From: Acidobacteriota bacterium
Lineage (GTDB): Bacteria; Acidobacteriota; Thermoanaerobaculia; UBA5066
Assembly (NCBI GenBank): GCA_003152095.1
Contig: PLZI01000016.1
Span: 18,334 to 72,504 of the forward strand
Length of the DNA stretch: 54,171 nucleotides
Reading direction: 5' to 3'
Below are positions 18,741-53,007 of the stretch, piece after piece (the first letter of the stretch is position 1; each line of letters begins with the position of its first letter). The position numbers and the translations under genes were made by a program. The notes beneath the pieces are model-generated. The model ran no database searches, was not told the origin of the DNA, and saw only the letters and a program-made list of their open reading frames with translations.

Positions 18741-19838
18741 GTGGACGCCGTCCCCCGCCGCATCCTCCATCTCGATATGGACGCGTTCTATGCGTCCGTG
18801 GAGCAGCGTGACGATCCCTCGCTGCGCGGCAAGCCCGTGGCCGTGGGCGGCGACCCGAAGGGGCGCGGCGTCGTGGCGGCCGCCAGCTACGAGGCCCGGA
18901 AGTTCGGCGTTCGCTCCGCGATTCCCATGGCGCGCGCCGTGCGCCTGTGCCCGCATCTCGCGATCGTGCGGCCGGACTTCAAGCGCTATTCCGCCGTCTC
19001 GAAGCAGATCCTCGACCTCTACCGCGCCGTCACGCCGCTCGTCGAGCCGCTCTCGCTCGACGAGGCGTATCTCGACGTGACCGAGAATGCGTGGAACGAG
19101 CCCCTCGGCGTGAACGTGGCCCGCCGCCTCAAGAAAGACGTCCATGAAGCGACGTCCCTCACGGTTTCGGCAGGTGTCGCGCCGAACAAATTTCTCGCGA
19201 AGATCGCCTCCGGCTGGAAGAAGCCCGACGGCCTCACGGTCATCGCACCGGTGCGGGTCGAGCGCTTTCTCGAGAAGCTGCCCGTCGACGCGCTCTGGGG
19301 CGTAGGGCCGAAGACGGCGGAGAAGCTCCTCGCGCTCGGGTGCGTGCGCCTCGTGGACGTGCGGCGCATCCCTGCGGACGCGCTCCGGCGCGCGGTCGGA
19401 AGCTGGGCCGACTCTCTCGTCCGCCTCGCGCGCGGCGAGGACGACCGCCCCGTCGTGCCGAACCGGCGCGCGAAGTCGTGCAGCACGGAGGACACGTTCG
19501 CCGAGGACCTGGCGGACCCGGCGGCGATGCGGGCCTGGGTCGAGTCGATGGCGCGCCACGACGCGGCGTGGCTGAACCGAAGGGGGCTCTTCGCGCGAAC
19601 GGTCGTTCTGAAGGTGCGCTATGGGGACTTCACGACCGTCACGCGGAGCGACACGCGCCGCCCGACGCGCGATGCCGACGAGCTGGCGGACCGCGCGGTC
19701 GCGCTTCTCGGGCGGACCGAGGCCGCGACGCGTCCCGTACGCCTCCTCGGCGTCGGGGTGCACGGCCTGATGACGCCGGAGGAGATGGCGCGCGCGGCGC
19801 CGCCCGACCCGCAGCTTCCGCTCCTCGCCGAAGACTGA
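18741..19838 (+). CDS. dinB: DNA polymerase IV (Y-family translesion polymerase)
   Basis: 365 aa. The GTG at 18741 is chosen because it keeps the first catalytic block HLDMDAFYASVEQ (metal-binding Asp12) complete; the next ATG would begin inside it. The second catalytic block is SLDEAYLDVT (about residue 105). Other Y-family blocks are AASYEARKFGVRSAIPM, the thumb-like ASGWKKPDGLTV and a helix-hairpin-helix-like ALWGVGPKTAEKLLALG. The little-finger domain follows. Residues after VHGLM are short, and no clear beta-clamp-binding QxxLxLF tail is seen; the end reads DPQLPLLAED, which could be a degenerate clamp motif. The gene converges on the selenoprotein gene with 3 bases between. Confidence 0.96.
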   Translation: MDAVPRRILHLDMDAFYASVEQRDDPSLRGKPVAVGGDPKGRGVVAAASYEARKFGVRSAIPMARAVRLCPHLAIVRPDFKRYSAVSKQILDLYRAVTPLVEPLSLDEAYLDVTENAWNEPLGVNVARRLKKDVHEATSLTVSAGVAPNKFLAKIASGWKKPDGLTVIAPVRVERFLEKLPVDALWGVGPKTAEKLLALGCVRLVDVRRIPADALRRAVGSWADSLVRLARGEDDRPVVPNRRAKSCSTEDTFAEDLADPAAMRAWVESMARHDAAWLNRRGLFARTVVLKVRYGDFTTVTRSDTRRPTRDADELADRAVALLGRTEAATRPVRLLGVGVHGLMTPEEMARAAPPDPQLPLLAED

Positions 19839-19841
19839 GGC

Positions 19842-20177
19842 TCAGCGCACGCCGAGCTCCTTTCTGAGTGTCTCCTCGTGGAACCCCACGAGAAGGCGGC
19901 GCCCGATCCTCACCATCGGCGCCCGGAAATTACCCGTCGGACCGCGGAGATCGTCGAGCGTCGCGTCGCGCGCCGGGACGGCCCGTGTGGACTTGCCCTT
20001 CGCGACGACGATTTCGTCGACCTCCTTCAGGAGGGTGCGAACGTCCTTCTCGGACATCGGGTTCGACTTGGAGAGGCGCGTCGTGGCGATGCGGGCCTTC
20101 GTGGCGTCCAGCACCTCACGGGTGCGGCCGCAGCTCGTTCAACCGTTGCGGTGGTAGTAGAAATCGACGTCTCGCAT
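19842..20177 (-). CDS. ArsC-family selenoprotein (in-frame TGA read as selenocysteine)
   Basis: 111 residues if the TGA at 20139-20141 is read as Sec. The ATG at 20175-20177 opens MRDVDFYYHRNG, then TGA, then TSCGRTREVLDATK and so on to GVR. This places Sec at position 13 in a U-T-S-C motif, exactly where ArsC/Spx/YffB proteins carry the redox-active C-x-x-C after beta-strand 1. The rest keeps the fold: TRLSKSNPMSEKDVRTLL, then GNFRAPMVRIGRRLLVGF, similar to the 'RPi...g...vGf' end of the family. Length matches ArsC/Spx proteins (110-120 aa). Without readthrough, the remaining 90-codon frame would lack the first strand and the active-site residue. It is probably a thiol-disulfide or arsenate-type reductase, partner unknown. 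It lies 29 bases after the FAD oxidoreductase gene and may be cotranscribed. Confidence 0.88.
20106..20141 (-). promoter_or_regulatory. Candidate bacterial SECIS element just after the Sec codon
   Basis: On the minus strand the UGA (20141-20139) is followed by 18 bases and then a hairpin loop. The upper stem is GCACC (20125-20121) with GGTGC (20115-20111), extended by two more C-G pairs across a one-base T bulge (20127-20126 with 20109-20108). The loop is CGTGA (20120-20116) with a G at its second position. Known bacterial SECIS rules ask for a 16-37 base distance, a short upper stem and a G among the first two loop bases; all are met. The fold was done by eye, not computed. Confidence 0.7.
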
Positions 20178-20206: not shown

Positions 20207-21553
20207 TCAGCGGAGCGTCGCGAGAATCGCGTCCGCCGCCTCGCGCCCGATGCGGATCGCGTAGTTCTGGCCGCGGTCCTCCGGATACGTCTGCGCCATG
20301 CACGCGGACCAGAGCCCGGGGACGGGCGTCTGAAGCGGCGGGAGGAGCTTCGAGTAGCCCGGCACGATGATGGGCTGCGCGTACTCGGCGCGCCCGATCT
20401 GCTTCGCGAGGATCCAGCTCTCGTCGAACGCCGGGTTCACGACCTTCAGCGCGGGCAGGTATTCGGCCCACAGGTCTTCGTCGCGCTTTTTCCACTTCGG
20501 GTCGTCGGGCAGGACGTAGTTCGAGAGGTAGACGACGTGGCGCCCGCCGTAATCCGCAGGGGAGAGGAAATTCGTGTGCTCGATGACGCCGCCGAACGGC
20601 ATCGACACGTCCCCGACGTTGAGCCAGTAATACGGCGAGAGCGAGCGGTCGAGCTCGAGGATCGGGCACAGGGCGTGGGAGTAGGAGATCGCGCTCCACG
20701 TCTTCCGCGTCGCCTCTGGAAGGTCCGGCGCGAGCCTGAGGAGCTCGGGGATCGCGACGGTCGACAGGACGAGGTCGAACGTCTCCGTTCCCCCCGCGAA
20801 CGTCACGTCGAATCCCCCGGTCCCGCGCTTTACGATCCGGACGGGACGCGATGTCCGCACGTCGCCGCCACGCTCTTTCACGCGCGCCAGCACCGCCTCG
20901 ATGCCGCGCCCGAACGAGCCCTTCAGGTAGCCGAGGCGTTCGCCGAGGCCCGTCTTGTCCCGTGAGCGCGTCCTAAGACCGATCTTTCCCCACAGCCACA
21001 CGAGGCCCACGTCTTCCGCGCGGCGCCCGTACTTCTGCCGGAGAAGCGGCCCCCAGACGGCGTCGAGCGCGCGCCCGTAGCCGTTCGCGCGCATCCAGCC
21101 CATCGCGGTCTTGTCTTCCAGACTTTTCCAATCGGCGTCGTGCCGAAGCTTCAGCGTCGAGAGGACGAACTGGACTCTTCCCAGGAGCCCGAGCGGGGTG
21201 AACGCGAGAAGAGAAGCCGGCGTACCGAAGTCGTAGAGCTTGCCGCCCGAGAGGAAGCCCATGCGCGACTTCAGCCAGAGGAGATCCTTCTCGAAGCCGA
21301 ACTCCTTCGCGAAAGAGACGTAGTCGACGTCGCTCGTGAAGAGGTGGTGGTAGTACCGCTCGAGCGGCGTTCCGCCGACGTTCACGACGCCCACCAAGCC
21401 GCCCGCCTCGGGGAACTTCTCGAAGATCGTGACGGGCACGCCCGCCCCGAGCAGGCGGTCCGCCGCGACGAGGCCGGCAAGACCGCCGCCGATCACGGCG
21501 ACGCGGGGCGAAGCGGCAGCGTTCACGGTCGCGAGTGTAAGCCGGGGACTCAT
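20207..21553 (-). CDS. FAD-dependent amine-oxidase/protoporphyrinogen-oxidase-like oxidoreductase
   Basis: 448 aa. The N-terminus has a classic dinucleotide-binding fold: VAVIGGGLAGLVAADRLL followed by an acidic end of strand 2 (TIFEKFPEAGGLVG), typical of COG1232/amino-oxidase flavoproteins. The PLERYYHHLFTSD segment occurs in the branch often found beside polyprenyl-phosphate glycosyltransferases. The C-terminus ends with GLWSACMAQTYPEDRGQNYAIRIGREAAD, the usual FAD-contact region. The annotated start is ATG 21553; a GTG at 21526 is also possible and would remove nine residues. The enzyme is not a clear haem-pathway oxidase: no hem genes are near, while the divergent DUF2298 operon begins 39 bases away. 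A role in lipid-carrier or sugar oxidation or isomerisation is inference. Confidence 0.82.
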   Translation of the reverse strand: MSPRLTLATVNAAASPRVAVIGGGLAGLVAADRLLGAGVPVTIFEKFPEAGGLVGVVNVGGTPLERYYHHLFTSDVDYVSFAKEFGFEKDLLWLKSRMGFLSGGKLYDFGTPASLLAFTPLGLLGRVQFVLSTLKLRHDADWKSLEDKTAMGWMRANGYGRALDAVWGPLLRQKYGRRAEDVGLVWLWGKIGLRTRSRDKTGLGERLGYLKGSFGRGIEAVLARVKERGGDVRTSRPVRIVKRGTGGFDVTFAGGTETFDLVLSTVAIPELLRLAPDLPEATRKTWSAISYSHALCPILELDRSLSPYYWLNVGDVSMPFGGVIEHTNFLSPADYGGRHVVYLSNYVLPDDPKWKKRDEDLWAEYLPALKVVNPAFDESWILAKQIGRAEYAQPIIVPGYSKLLPPLQTPVPGLWSACMAQTYPEDRGQNYAIRIGREAADAILATLR

Positions 21554-48582: not shown

Positions 48583-49578
48583 GTGACCCCGCGACGAGAC
48601 GCCCTCGCCTTCCTCCGCCGCTTCGCCTCCGCGCCGAAAGTGGAGCTTCACCTGCACCTCGAAGGAGCGGTTCCGGCGGCCGTCCTCGTCGGCCTCTCGT
48701 CCCGCTCGGCCAAGCCTATCTTCCCCGATGTCGCATCCGTTCGCGCGCGGCGCCGCGCGCTCGGTTCGCCGGACGCGTTCTTCGGCTTCTACCGCGACGT
48801 CTGCCGCCAGATTCGGAGCTCCGCCGATTACGCCGTCATCGCGCGTAGCCTCGTGGCGCGCCTCGCCCGGGAAAACGTGCGCTGGGCGGAGGTCTACGTC
48901 TCGCCTGCGGTCGTGGAGAAGATCGGGCTCGACTGGTTCGACGTCCGCGACGCTCTCGAGCACACCTTCGCGGAGCACGAAGCGAGGGGCGGCGGGCGCG
49001 TGCGCGTTCTGCTCGACTTCGTGCGGCACTGGGGCCCGGCGGCCGCCGAGCGCGTCCTCGATCTCCACGCCGAGCGGCCCTGGCCGCGCGTCGTGGGATT
49101 CGGTCTCGGCGGAGAGGAAACGGCCTTTGCCACAGGCGATTTCGCCGAGGTATACCGCCGGGGCCGCCGAGCCGGACTCCTTCCGGTCGTGCACGCAGGT
49201 GAATGGGGGGGGCCGGATTCGGTCGCCGACGCCGTGCACTTTCTTCAGCCGGTACGGATCGCTCACGGCATCCGGGCCGCGGAGGATCCCGCGCTCCTGA
49301 AGACGCTCGCGAGAAAAGGCGTTGTCTGCGACGTCTGCCCGACGTCGAACCTCCGAACGGGGGCCGTCTCCCGCGGCGCGGAGCATCCGCTCCGCCGCAT
49401 GCTCGCGGCGGGCGTTCCCGTGACACTCTCGACGGACGACCCCGGCCTCTTCGGGACGACCCTCGTGGGCGAGTTCCGGCGCGCCGCTTCGTGGGGCGCG
49501 TCCGGGGCCGAGCTGGAGAGGTGCGCCGCTGACGCGCGTCAGGCCGCGGCCAGGACGCGCTCATACACCGCGAGATAG
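48583..49578 (+). CDS. Adenosine deaminase family protein
   Basis: 331 aa from GTG 48583. The metal and catalytic residues of the family are present: VELHLHLEGAV (two His), HAGEWGGP (third zinc His and catalytic Glu-type segment), IAHGI (His base), and LSTDDPGLFG (zinc Asp). The length matches adenosine/adenine deaminases (about 330-350). Adenine versus adenosine versus a 6-aminodeoxyfutalosine-type substrate cannot be separated by eye; the pattern FYRDVCRQIRSSADYAVIAR is compatible with all. Its 3' end overlaps the convergent bshA gene by 40 bases. No ribosome-binding site is seen before the GTG. Confidence 0.85.
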   Translation: MTPRRDALAFLRRFASAPKVELHLHLEGAVPAAVLVGLSSRSAKPIFPDVASVRARRRALGSPDAFFGFYRDVCRQIRSSADYAVIARSLVARLARENVRWAEVYVSPAVVEKIGLDWFDVRDALEHTFAEHEARGGGRVRVLLDFVRHWGPAAAERVLDLHAERPWPRVVGFGLGGEETAFATGDFAEVYRRGRRAGLLPVVHAGEWGGPDSVADAVHFLQPVRIAHGIRAAEDPALLKTLARKGVVCDVCPTSNLRTGAVSRGAEHPLRRMLAAGVPVTLSTDDPGLFGTTLVGEFRRAASWGASGAELERCAADARQAAARTRSYTAR

Positions 49579-50660
49579 CGCGATACGATCGCGTTCGCGT
49601 CGAAGAGGCGCGTCGCGCGCTCCCGAGAGGCCCGGGACATCGCCGCGTAGCGCGGCTCATCGAGAAGCAGCGACACGCCGTCCTCCGCGAGGCCGGCAAC
49701 GTCGCCCACGCTTCGGAGGAAGCCCGTCTCGCCGTGCGCGATGACCTCCGGAAGCCCGCCCACGGCGTATCCGAGGACGGGGACGCCGCACGCTTGCGCC
49801 TCGAGCGCGGAGAGCCCGAAGGATTCGGAGTTCGACGGCAGGAGGTAGAGGTCCGCGGCGGGCATCACGGCCTCGAGCGCAGGCATGTTCCCGAGGAACG
49901 AAACGAACGGCGCGATACCCTTCTCGCGGCACAGCGCCTCGGCGGCGGGGCGGTCAGGGCCGTCGCCGATCATGACGAGCGTCGCCGGGACGCGCTGCCT
50001 CAGGCGGTCGAAAACCTCGACGACGTCCAGCACGCGCTTCACCGGCCGGAAATTCGAAACGTGCATCAGCACCTTCCGGCCCTCGGGTACGAAGCGGCAT
50101 GCGAGCTGCGGCGATTCCGGTGTCCAGCGCTTGGGGTTGATGAAGTTCGGTATGACCTCGATCTCCCGCTTCGGTTGGAACACGTCGATCGTGACCTTCT
50201 TGAGGTGCTCGGAGACGGCGGTGACGGCGTCCGACTTCTCGATGCCGAAGCGCGTAATGGGAAGGTACGAACGGTCCTGCCCGACGATCGTCACGTCCGT
50301 CCCGTGCAGCGTCGTCACGAGGCCGAGGCGCCGCGGGGCGAGCATCTCGCGCGCGAGATGGGCCGAGATCGCATGCGGGAGCGCGTAGTGGACGTGAATC
50401 AGGTCGAGGCCTTCGTGTGTCGCGACGTCGCCCATACGTGTCGCGAGCGCGAGGTCGTACGGGGCGTACTGGAAGAGCGGATACGACGGGACTGAAACCT
50501 CGTGATACGTCACGCGATCCGCGAAGACGTTCAGGCGCGAGGGCATTGCGTACGTGATGAAGTGCACGTCGTGCCCACGCTGCGCCAGCTCGTGTCCGAG
50601 CTCCGTCGCCACGACCCCGGAGCCTCCGAACGTCGGGTAGCACGTGATGCCGATCTTCAC
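49539..50660 (-). CDS. bshA: Bacillithiol synthesis glycosyltransferase (GlcNAc-malate synthase)
   Basis: 373 aa. The BshA N-terminus is unmistakable: MKIGITCYPTFGGSGVVATELGHELAQRGHDVHFIT. GT4 features include HVHYALPHAISAHLA, TTLHGTDVTIVGQDRS, and the donor site SFLGNMPALEAVMPAADLYLLPSNSESFGLSALEAQACGVP with the catalytic Glu-x7-Glu. BshA couples UDP-GlcNAc to L-malate, the first step of bacillithiol synthesis. Its start overlaps the bshB1 stop by four bases, so the order on the minus strand is bshC-bshB1-bshA. Confidence 0.97.
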   Translation of the reverse strand: MKIGITCYPTFGGSGVVATELGHELAQRGHDVHFITYAMPSRLNVFADRVTYHEVSVPSYPLFQYAPYDLALATRMGDVATHEGLDLIHVHYALPHAISAHLAREMLAPRRLGLVTTLHGTDVTIVGQDRSYLPITRFGIEKSDAVTAVSEHLKKVTIDVFQPKREIEVIPNFINPKRWTPESPQLACRFVPEGRKVLMHVSNFRPVKRVLDVVEVFDRLRQRVPATLVMIGDGPDRPAAEALCREKGIAPFVSFLGNMPALEAVMPAADLYLLPSNSESFGLSALEAQACGVPVLGYAVGGLPEVIAHGETGFLRSVGDVAGLAEDGVSLLLDEPRYAAMSRASRERATRLFDANAIVSRYLAVYERVLAAA

Positions 50661-51394
50661 GTTTTCTTTCCGCCTTCGTACCCGAGGAACGCGGCGACCG
50701 GGTCCGCCAGCGTCGGGGGCACGTTCGAGACGAAGCCTTCCGCGTATTCCACGTTCGCGATCCTCCCGAGCGCGCGCGACCGTGCCTCGATCCCGTCGAA
50801 AAAACCCTTAGAGGAGACATACGTCTCGGGTTCGCTCGAGTTTTCGTCGAAAAACTGGCTCCGATAGGCGCGGAGGGCCGCGATCTTCGTCGCAAACGAC
50901 GTTGAGACGTCGACGAGGAACGTGGGCGGCGCAAAGACGTACGCGGCATAGAAGATCACCTGGTCGGGCCGGTGCGGGGGGAGGCCCGTCTCGAGCTTCG
51001 CGAGCCCGGCGTACCAGGCCGCCTCCGGCACGAGGCGGCCCGCGCGCGCGTGATCCGGATGGCGGTCTGCGGGGAGCGGCGCCAGAATGAGGCGCGGCCG
51101 CGCGCGCCGGACGGCCTCGACAACGCGAAGTTCGGCGGCGCGATCCGTCCGGAGGTCGCCGTCCCCGAGGTCGAGCGTCTCGCGAAAGCACGCGCCGAGG
51201 ATCCGCGCGGCCTCCCGCGCCTCGCTTTCCCGGATCTCCGGCGTGCCGCGCGTGCCCATTTCACCGCGTGTGAGGTCCACGATTCCAAACGACCGCCCGC
51301 GCCGCGCGAGCGCGGCGAGCGTCCCGCCGCACCCGAGATCGACGTCGTCGGGGTGAGGAGAGAATGCGAGGATGTCGACGGGCTCGACGTTCAC
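50657..51394 (-). CDS. bshB1: Bacillithiol deacetylase BshB1
   Basis: 245 aa. A PIG-L/LmbE-type zinc deacetylase: the zinc-binding AFSPHPDDVDLGCGG at the N-terminus, DLTRGEMGTRGTPEIREQ-like segment (here EIRESE), and the distal ligand region LPADRHPDHARAG. It removes the acetyl group of GlcNAc-malate to give GlcN-malate. The gene overlaps bshA (downstream) and bshC (upstream) by four bases each, giving a compact, coupled operon. Confidence 0.96.
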   Translation of the reverse strand: MNVEPVDILAFSPHPDDVDLGCGGTLAALARRGRSFGIVDLTRGEMGTRGTPEIRESEAREAARILGACFRETLDLGDGDLRTDRAAELRVVEAVRRARPRLILAPLPADRHPDHARAGRLVPEAAWYAGLAKLETGLPPHRPDQVIFYAAYVFAPPTFLVDVSTSFATKIAALRAYRSQFFDENSSEPETYVSSKGFFDGIEARSRALGRIANVEYAEGFVSNVPPTLADPVAAFLGYEGGKKT

Positions 51395-52968
51395 AGGGCG
51401 ATCACCTGGAGCCCCGGCTCGTTCCAGACGAGCTCCCGCCGGAGCGCGCCCACGACCGCCTCGCGGCCGAAACGCAGGACGTATGGCAACACGGAGTACA
51501 CGCGCTCGGCCAGCATACCGCCGGGAAAGATCTCCTCCGCGAGCCGGTTCACCTGTTGCGCCACGTGTTCGTCCGCGCGTCCCGCCGCGCCGGCCGTCTT
51601 CTCGACGAGCTTCTCAAACGCAAAGGCGGTCTTGTCGCGCGTCGTCTCTACTGCCTTCTCGAGGGCGGGATCCACTGCGAGAAGCGCCGGCTTCAGACCC
51701 TCGAGATCCCGGATCGCACCCTCCCGGACGGCCGTGAGGCGATTCAGGAGCGCCTGCACCTTGCCCGTCCCCTTCTTCCTCAGCATCGCCTCCGGCCCCT
51801 CGAGGACATCCGTGACGGAAAAGCCGAGTTTGCCGAGCAGGCGCGCCGTGGCGGGAGGAATGAGCGCCACCATGGGGCGCGGAACCATCACGGGCGGGAC
51901 GATTCCGGCCCAGGCGAAGAGCGGCCAGCTCTGGGCCCAGTAGGCAATCTCGGCCGGGCCGAGGATCGTCGCGGCGACCGGCAGAAGCGTGGAAGCCGCG
52001 AGCGGTCGTGTGAGCGCAGAGAAGGACGGCAGCCAGGCGCCGCTCGCGAAGCGCTCGACGACCTCCTCGGCCTCGAAACTCCCGTCGCGCCCCTTGAGCG
52101 CGAGGTGCGATCCCCTCTCGACGAGGAGAAGGCGTTCTCCGCCGACGCGCGCGAAGAGCGGCAGGGCGGCGGGGTCGGACGTGACCTGCAGCGGGTGATT
52201 CGCAGCCTCGAGCGCGGCGCCGCGCTCGGCAAGGATGCGCTTCACGTCCGCCCGCTCGCGCACGATGCGAGATGCGAGCGGCACGAGCGCCGGTTTGTCG
52301 GCAGAGTTCGCCGCGTCCACGACGGGCATCACGTCGCCCGGGTCGTCCGAGAGTAGCCAGGCGAGCGTCGCGGAGAACGCCTCGAAGAATGTCTTTCCCC
52401 GATGCGCTGCCGCAAGCGCCTCTGCCTCCTCATCCCTCGGCTGAGCGAGACCGGCCGCTGCCGCTCGGACGAGCGCTTCGACGTCGACGCCGACGGGGAG
52501 TTCGCCAACGGGCGACCGGTTTTCGGCGAGCGCGTCCGGGTTGGGGCCGAAATCCTTCGGCCCATCCGGCCCCGGGAGGACGAGCCGCGTGACTTCCACG
52601 AGGTCATGGTCTTCCGACGCGCACCAGAAGGCGGCGCGTGCGGCCGTCCCGTGGGCCTCGAGATCCGCGGCGAGCTTTTCGGCCGCGAGGGCCTTGACGA
52701 GCGTCAGAAGAGGGCCGCCGAAGAGACCCACCTGCTGTCCGCTGAGAATGGCCGCTCGTTCGCCGCGGGCGAGCATCGCGAGCTCGGGATCCGTTTCGAG
52801 AGCCATGGTCCGCGGCCGGAACGCGGCCCGCACGTCGCGCACGCGCGCCGCGATGTTCGTGAATTCCGGCCGATCCGGAAGGAATGCGGACACGTCGGGC
52901 GTGCCCGTGGCGAGGCCGCGCGCGAGCGCCGGAATTCCCGGAACGCGAGCGAGCGGTGCGGTCGTCAT
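51391..52968 (-). CDS. bshC: Bacillithiol synthesis cysteine ligase
   Basis: 525 aa from ATG 52966-52968, preferred over a GTG 27 bases upstream because GGGGAA lies before it. Family marks: AILSGQQVGLFGGPLLTLVKA, AFWCASEDHDLVEV and the C-terminal coiled-coil-like region RAVREGAIRDLEGLKPALL (here TAVREGAIRDLEG). BshC is the presumed ligase adding cysteine to GlcN-malate. The three-gene operon therefore supplies a complete route to bacillithiol. A TATCAT hexamer on the minus strand (52996-53001) could be its -10 box. Confidence 0.95.
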   Translation of the reverse strand: MTTAPLARVPGIPALARGLATGTPDVSAFLPDRPEFTNIAARVRDVRAAFRPRTMALETDPELAMLARGERAAILSGQQVGLFGGPLLTLVKALAAEKLAADLEAHGTAARAAFWCASEDHDLVEVTRLVLPGPDGPKDFGPNPDALAENRSPVGELPVGVDVEALVRAAAAGLAQPRDEEAEALAAAHRGKTFFEAFSATLAWLLSDDPGDVMPVVDAANSADKPALVPLASRIVRERADVKRILAERGAALEAANHPLQVTSDPAALPLFARVGGERLLLVERGSHLALKGRDGSFEAEEVVERFASGAWLPSFSALTRPLAASTLLPVAATILGPAEIAYWAQSWPLFAWAGIVPPVMVPRPMVALIPPATARLLGKLGFSVTDVLEGPEAMLRKKGTGKVQALLNRLTAVREGAIRDLEGLKPALLAVDPALEKAVETTRDKTAFAFEKLVEKTAGAAGRADEHVAQQVNRLAEEIFPGGMLAERVYSVLPYVLRFGREAVVGALRRELVWNEPGLQVIAL

Positions 52969-53007
52969 CGCGGCTTCCCCGTTACCATCGGGCACGATGA
53001 TAGGAGG

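Follow-up and report, generated by a model that had tools for sequence, protein, structure and literature searches.

A TGA-interrupted arsC-related gene in an Acidobacteriota genome very probably encodes a UxxC selenoprotein of the NF041106 family

Background

When a TGA interrupts an arsC-related reading frame in a bacterial genome, does it end the gene, or is it read as selenocysteine (Sec, U)? The question arises at a locus within a 54,171-nucleotide stretch of an Acidobacteriota genome (hereafter, we refer to the whole stretch as the window), for which an initial annotation had proposed an ArsC-family selenoprotein with TGA at the redox-active position. In the present manuscript, we examine this gene together with its relatives in neighboring genomes, in a sample of the phylum and in a scan of named genomes. 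We put the probability at about 0.9 that the gene encodes a selenoprotein with a UxxC redox center, of the NF041106 type within the ArsC/Spx superfamily.

Selenoproteins of this general kind have been documented in the literature. A listing from 2006 includes ArsC-like selenoproteins (PMC1794560), and the GOS survey of 2008 listed both UxxS and UxxC forms of arsenate reductase (PMC2398784). The UxxC form is listed again in a 2022 review (PMC9312934), and a 2026 review enters an “Arsenate reductase-like protein, UxxC” under NF041106, citing the GOS survey (PMC13188914). NF041106 thus has an existing description as a family of selenoproteins, and the window's gene is an additional member of it. 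In the literature that we searched, we found no biochemical work on NF041106; assaying substrates for any one of its members would fill a real gap.

Results

Reading frame and genomic surroundings

The frame continues without a further stop for 98 codons after the internal TGA, exactly as the initial annotation had described; it is encoded on the minus strand, a point on which that description was silent (Table 1). When the TGA is read as U, the translation starts with MRDVDFYYHRNG-U-TSC and has 98 of its 111 residues after the internal TGA; its full sequence is MRDVDFYYHRNGUTSCGRTREVLDATKARIATTRLSKSNPMSEKDVRTLLKEVDEIVVAKGKSTRAVPARDATLDDLRGPTGNFRAPMVRIGRRLLVGFHEETLRKELGVR. It equals NF041106 in length, in agreement with the earlier remark that the total length fits the family. 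For this locus, the ORF listing of the window gives only the piece from GTG 20114 to 19842 (90 aa), which is precisely the truncation that had been predicted of a conventional gene finder. Standard annotation thus cuts the gene short and loses its active site, one more case of this kind. The plus-strand reading of the same interval holds no relevant frame, and no clear Shine-Dalgarno sequence stands before the ATG.

Table 1 Coordinates of the selenoprotein gene, its elements, its neighbors and the bacillithiol operon in the window
Feature	Position	Strand	Details
arsC-related selenoprotein gene (NF041106-type)	19842..20177	minus	ATG 20177, stop TGA 19844-19842, 111 aa
In-frame TGA, codon 13, read as Sec	20139..20141	minus	first residue of U-T-S-C
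TGC codon, Cys16, putative resolving Cys of UxxC	20130..20132	minus	alignments A1 and A3
SECIS-type apical hairpin GCACC-CGUGA-GGUGC	20111..20125	minus	5-bp stem, +14 to +28 after TGA
Codons for invariant R85-A86-P87	19917..19925	minus	align with LRRP of Spx
FAD/NAD(P) oxidoreductase-like gene (PRK07233 type)	20207..21553	minus	upstream, co-oriented, 30 nt from ATG
DNA polymerase IV gene (dinB)	18741–19838	plus	convergent with selenoprotein gene
Bacillithiol operon bshA-bshB1-bshC	49539..52995	minus	about 30 kb from selenoprotein gene

Only 3 nt separate the convergent stop codons of dinB and the selenoprotein gene. On the other side, co-transcription with the oxidoreductase-like gene is possible; this neighbor is not conserved beyond the closest relatives. 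Across the relatives, we found no conserved operon partner, the neighbors being lineage-specific only (upstream genes in other lineages encode an M20 peptidase, a sulfatase, ThiG, a P450 or MatE). Different in each lineage, these neighbors give no pointer to an enzymatic role. An Rfam search around the gene returned no match, and a plasmid search returned no relative of it.

Selenocysteine machinery

At 3.64 Mb and 99.3% completeness, the genome to which the window belongs contains all four components that the initial annotation had named as a check, so that the refuting case it had set, a genome devoid of Sec machinery, does not apply. These components, which a bacterial selenoprotein should be accompanied by, are the following: SelA (442 bits), SelB (324 bits, summed over its frame), SelD (334 bits) and a tRNA-Sec (62 bits), reported by ARAGORN as tRNA-SeC with anticodon UCA. 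The second tRNA candidate is an ordinary tRNA-Ser. The selD gene, at G000:C120:26414-27388 (locus L010), carries one in-frame TGA, and because of this codon SelD is probably a selenoprotein too.

Family membership and conservation of the TGA

For the profile searches, the protein was scored with Cys written in place of Sec. It reaches 88.9 bits against the NCBIfam model NF041106, “ArsC family (seleno)protein”, above the cut-off of 85 (81.2 bits when the DNA is searched in six frames), and 24.6 bits against the Spx/MgsR model TIGR01617, whose cut-off is 75.05. The arsenate reductase model TIGR00014 (cut-off 106.05 bits) gives no match to the protein at E <= 1, and Pfam ArsC matches only weakly. 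The ArsC-family label given earlier stands at the level of the superfamily; as to closer kinship, NF041106 and Spx are nearer to the sequence than true arsenate reductase is. Compared with NF041106 (ArsC_rel_Se_1), the match extends over the whole length, with UxxC and Sec at the same place, and nothing essential differs. The window's protein is a divergent member close to the cut-off, and its branch has a shorter SECIS-type stem that lies closer to the UGA (+14/+28).

Searching the window's genome together with 60 related ones, we obtained 26 matches, namely the window's gene, 24 relatives and a chance match (L048). All 24 true relatives have TGA at codon 13 and a frame open to the end. In the phylum sample of 396 genomes, 36 of 37 matches above 50 bits carry TGA, the exception being G419 (50.4 bits). 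The named-genome scan found at least 508 stretches encoding an NF041106 relative, and we examined the codon at U13 in the best 80 of these: it is TGA in 76, TGC in three and TGT in one. The scan is unbiased toward Sec, because both of its search patterns can match Cys forms, and the number of encoding stretches, together with the frequency of Sec among the best 80, shows the large size of the family.

Within the best 80, the records with Sec forms are named as Acidobacteriota, Planctomycetota, Myxococcota, Delta- and Gammaproteobacteria, KSB1, Rokuibacteriota and others, and the four Cys forms come from Isosphaeraceae (L105), Actinobacteria (L147) and two genomes named “bacterium” (L154, L168). 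The UGA thus aligns with the redox Cys of homologues, and relatives have either Sec or Cys at residue 13, which bears out the proposal that TGA replaces the first Cys of the C-x-x-C motif and answers the suggested check for Cys at this residue in relatives. The idea that Cys-bearing genomes would be without SelB is not borne out: SelB exceeds the cut-off in three of the four (L105, L154 and L168), with none over the cut-off in the L147 genome. As these three genomes keep SelB, the occurrence of a Cys form does not imply that the machinery has been lost.

Among the invariant columns of the family alignments are Y8, R10, U13, C16, G61, G79, P80, G82, R85, A86, P87, V97 and G98, with Cys16 invariant in alignments A1 and A3. 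In one relative outside this pattern (L059), the motif reads UTSS, so that Sec is retained and Ser stands in place of the resolving Cys.

These data bear on whether the TGA could be a true stop, arising from sequencing error or gene decay and followed by a frame that is open by coincidence. The gene finder's calling of only a 90-codon piece would fit such an explanation. However, dozens of independent assemblies from several phyla carry TGA at this codon, which excludes a sequencing error, and the codons after it are under purifying selection in comparisons with three congeners (dN/dS 0.21, 0.33 and 0.38), in a genome that has the Sec machinery. Because the relatives (24 in the 60 neighboring genomes, and 76 of the best 80) keep the TGA, the frame is far beyond chance, and we regard a true stop as very improbable. 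A general reassignment of TGA in this organism could likewise explain in-frame TGAs in both the selenoprotein gene and selD, but the window's gene and most of its relatives terminate with TGA, and the UCA tRNA-Sec and SelB account for the recoding; the chance of a changed code is practically negligible. Conservation, selection and the use of TGA as terminal stop accordingly lead us to reject a sequencing error, a pseudogene and a general change of the code.

Predicted fold

An AlphaFold model built from 24 aligned sequences, with Cys in place of Sec, has a pLDDT of 93.8 and places U13 directly before a helix spanning residues 14–25. Spx chains head the PDB matches in both comparisons, that of sequence profiles (E 1.5e-10) and that of folds (E 4.6e-5, TM about 0.58), and ArsC-related chains and glutaredoxins come after them. 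In the alignment with Spx, U13-T-S-C16 corresponds to CTSC and U13 falls on its first Cys. Pro87 would occupy the site at which a thioredoxin fold is expected to have its cis-Pro.

SECIS-type hairpin

A SECIS-like hairpin had been reported after the TGA, and we find one whose loop begins at the 19th nucleotide after this codon (18 nt between) and has G at loop position 2. The stem has 5 bp, or 7 if a bulge is allowed, and the local fold has an energy of -9.5 kcal/mol. These properties agree with the published SECIS consensus (loop of 3–9 nt, stem of 4–16 bp, G in the first two loop positions, spacing of 16–37 nt and energy <= -7.5 kcal/mol; PMC13188914), and the register is common to 23 distinct sequences. 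Taken alone, the window's hairpin is unremarkable against synonymous shuffles (p = 0.17), with a fold z of -0.71 over 55 nt and -1.89 over 24 nt.

A general minimum-energy test across the family, in which at least two rows were without usable shuffles, gave a mean z of about -1 for the Sec genes. As this test is too blunt, we used a hairpin score that follows the published SECIS model and compared it with synonymous-codon shuffles. The mean score of 86 Sec genes is 8.52 versus 4.55 ± 0.34 after shuffling, and 0 of 200 shuffles reach the real score; for six Cys genes, there is no excess (3.00 versus 2.97 shuffled). The hairpin is therefore present, and highly significant for the family, while the window's own copy does not reach significance. 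Hairpins with a contiguous stem and G in the first two loop positions are found repeatedly among the Sec genes, at a few registers after the TGA, chiefly three. Other hairpin types include GCGUCCA-AGUUGA-UGGACGC and GCGCAGGA-GUU-UCUUGCGC.

The first, wider alignment was too diverse for a pattern scan. In a stem-pairing test, codons were permuted column by column between rows that share an amino acid. Pairing was 192/196 cells versus 181.7 ± 1.7 in one register and 143/147 versus 137.4 ± 1.1 in another (0/2000 permutations each), figures that are not strict probabilities because relatedness is ignored and rows were assigned to a register by their best hairpin. The window's register (80/2000) says little in this test because it varies too little. 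Stem registers differ by branch (+14/+28, +16/+35 and +17/+33; L023-L035 versus L036-L178), and over the course of evolution the position of the hairpin within the coding sequence therefore seems to have moved.

Discussion

What the protein does can be narrowed by comparison with its better-known relatives. A true arsenate reductase, in which Sec13 would form a selenium-arsenate adduct as the catalytic Cys of classical ArsC does, is consistent with the ArsC superfamily fold and the weak Pfam ArsC match. The role would also be vacant in this genome, since a search for TIGR00014 across it found none at E <= 0.001. With ArsC (TIGR00014) and its UxxS selenoprotein form (ArsC 1 of GOS), the window's protein has in common the superfamily and the position of the nucleophile; it differs in having no TIGR00014 match of its own and in the fourth motif residue, which is Cys rather than the Ser of the CxxS type usual in ArsC. 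Furthermore, none of the genes that adjoin it in the genomes sampled is an ars gene, and the fold ends in a Spx-like LLVGF, where classical ArsC carries an additional catalytic Arg. We consider arsenate reduction an unlikely role. The standing of Spx chains as best PDB matches by sequence and fold, with UTSC aligned to CTSC, could point instead to a Sec version of Spx, that is, a redox switch that would bind RNA polymerase and have an Se-S bond as its sensor. The likeness to Spx/MgsR (TIGR01617; PDB 1z3e, 6ghb) lies in the thioredoxin-like fold and in the UTSC/CTSC, R-x-P and VG[FY] motifs. However, the protein is far below the Spx/MgsR cut-off, has Sec for Cys and is shorter (111 aa versus 131-132 aa for Spx), and Sec appears to be chosen usually for catalysis and not for sensing. 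Such a switch is improbable in our judgment, and a Sec-based redox regulator, a counterpart of Spx that would sense oxidants via the Se-S bond and control transcription, is hardly more than a marginal prospect.

The initial annotation had also considered a bacillithiol-linked reductase; such an enzyme would be bacilliredoxin-like and work with the bsh operon nearby. The operon is indeed complete (bshA, bshB1 and bshC; its BshC has 234 bits, under the cut-off of 265.8), and besides its proximity, the occurrence of BshC in all sampled carriers of the window's own class argues for such a link. We examined co-occurrence in the 36 TGA-carrying genomes of the phylum sample (BshC threshold E <= 1e-30), using a table compiled by hand from lists that do not name every negative genome. 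BshC is present in 25 of the 36 carriers and not found in 11, several of which are 96–100% complete; among the 14 carriers that do not belong to the window's class, just 3 have it. With an odds ratio of 1.6 (p = 0.22), the association is not significant, and the co-occurrence with bacillithiol synthesis expected of a bacillithiol-dependent oxidoreductase is not seen across the phylum. Since BshC was not found in 11 of 36 carriers, an obligate partnership with bacillithiol is not supported. We find the suggested role doubtful, and a lineage-specific link to bacillithiol is possible.

The function that we prefer for this small thioredoxin-fold protein, a general thiol/disulfide oxidoreductase role based on a selenolate, seems reasonably likely. 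SelB and Sec-tRNA would decode the UGA at codon 13, helped by the stem-loop just downstream, and the selenolate of Sec, placed where the first helix begins, would stand in for the nucleophilic Cys of CxxC. Judging from this anatomy, the selenolate most likely attacks a disulfide or a similar oxidized substrate, after which Cys16 would resolve the intermediate with formation of an Se-S bond, and a cellular thiol system would presumably re-reduce that bond.

Spx-like UxxC proteins are found in other genomes of the same phylum (L080, L081 and L082). As in the window's protein, Sec is at the same motif position and Cys homologues exist, but these proteins form a separate branch, with L080 scoring 64 bits against TIGR01617 versus 35 bits against NF041106. 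The motif of this second group reads STUTTCRNA or PTUTSCRKA, and its Cys relatives are L091, L092 and L093.
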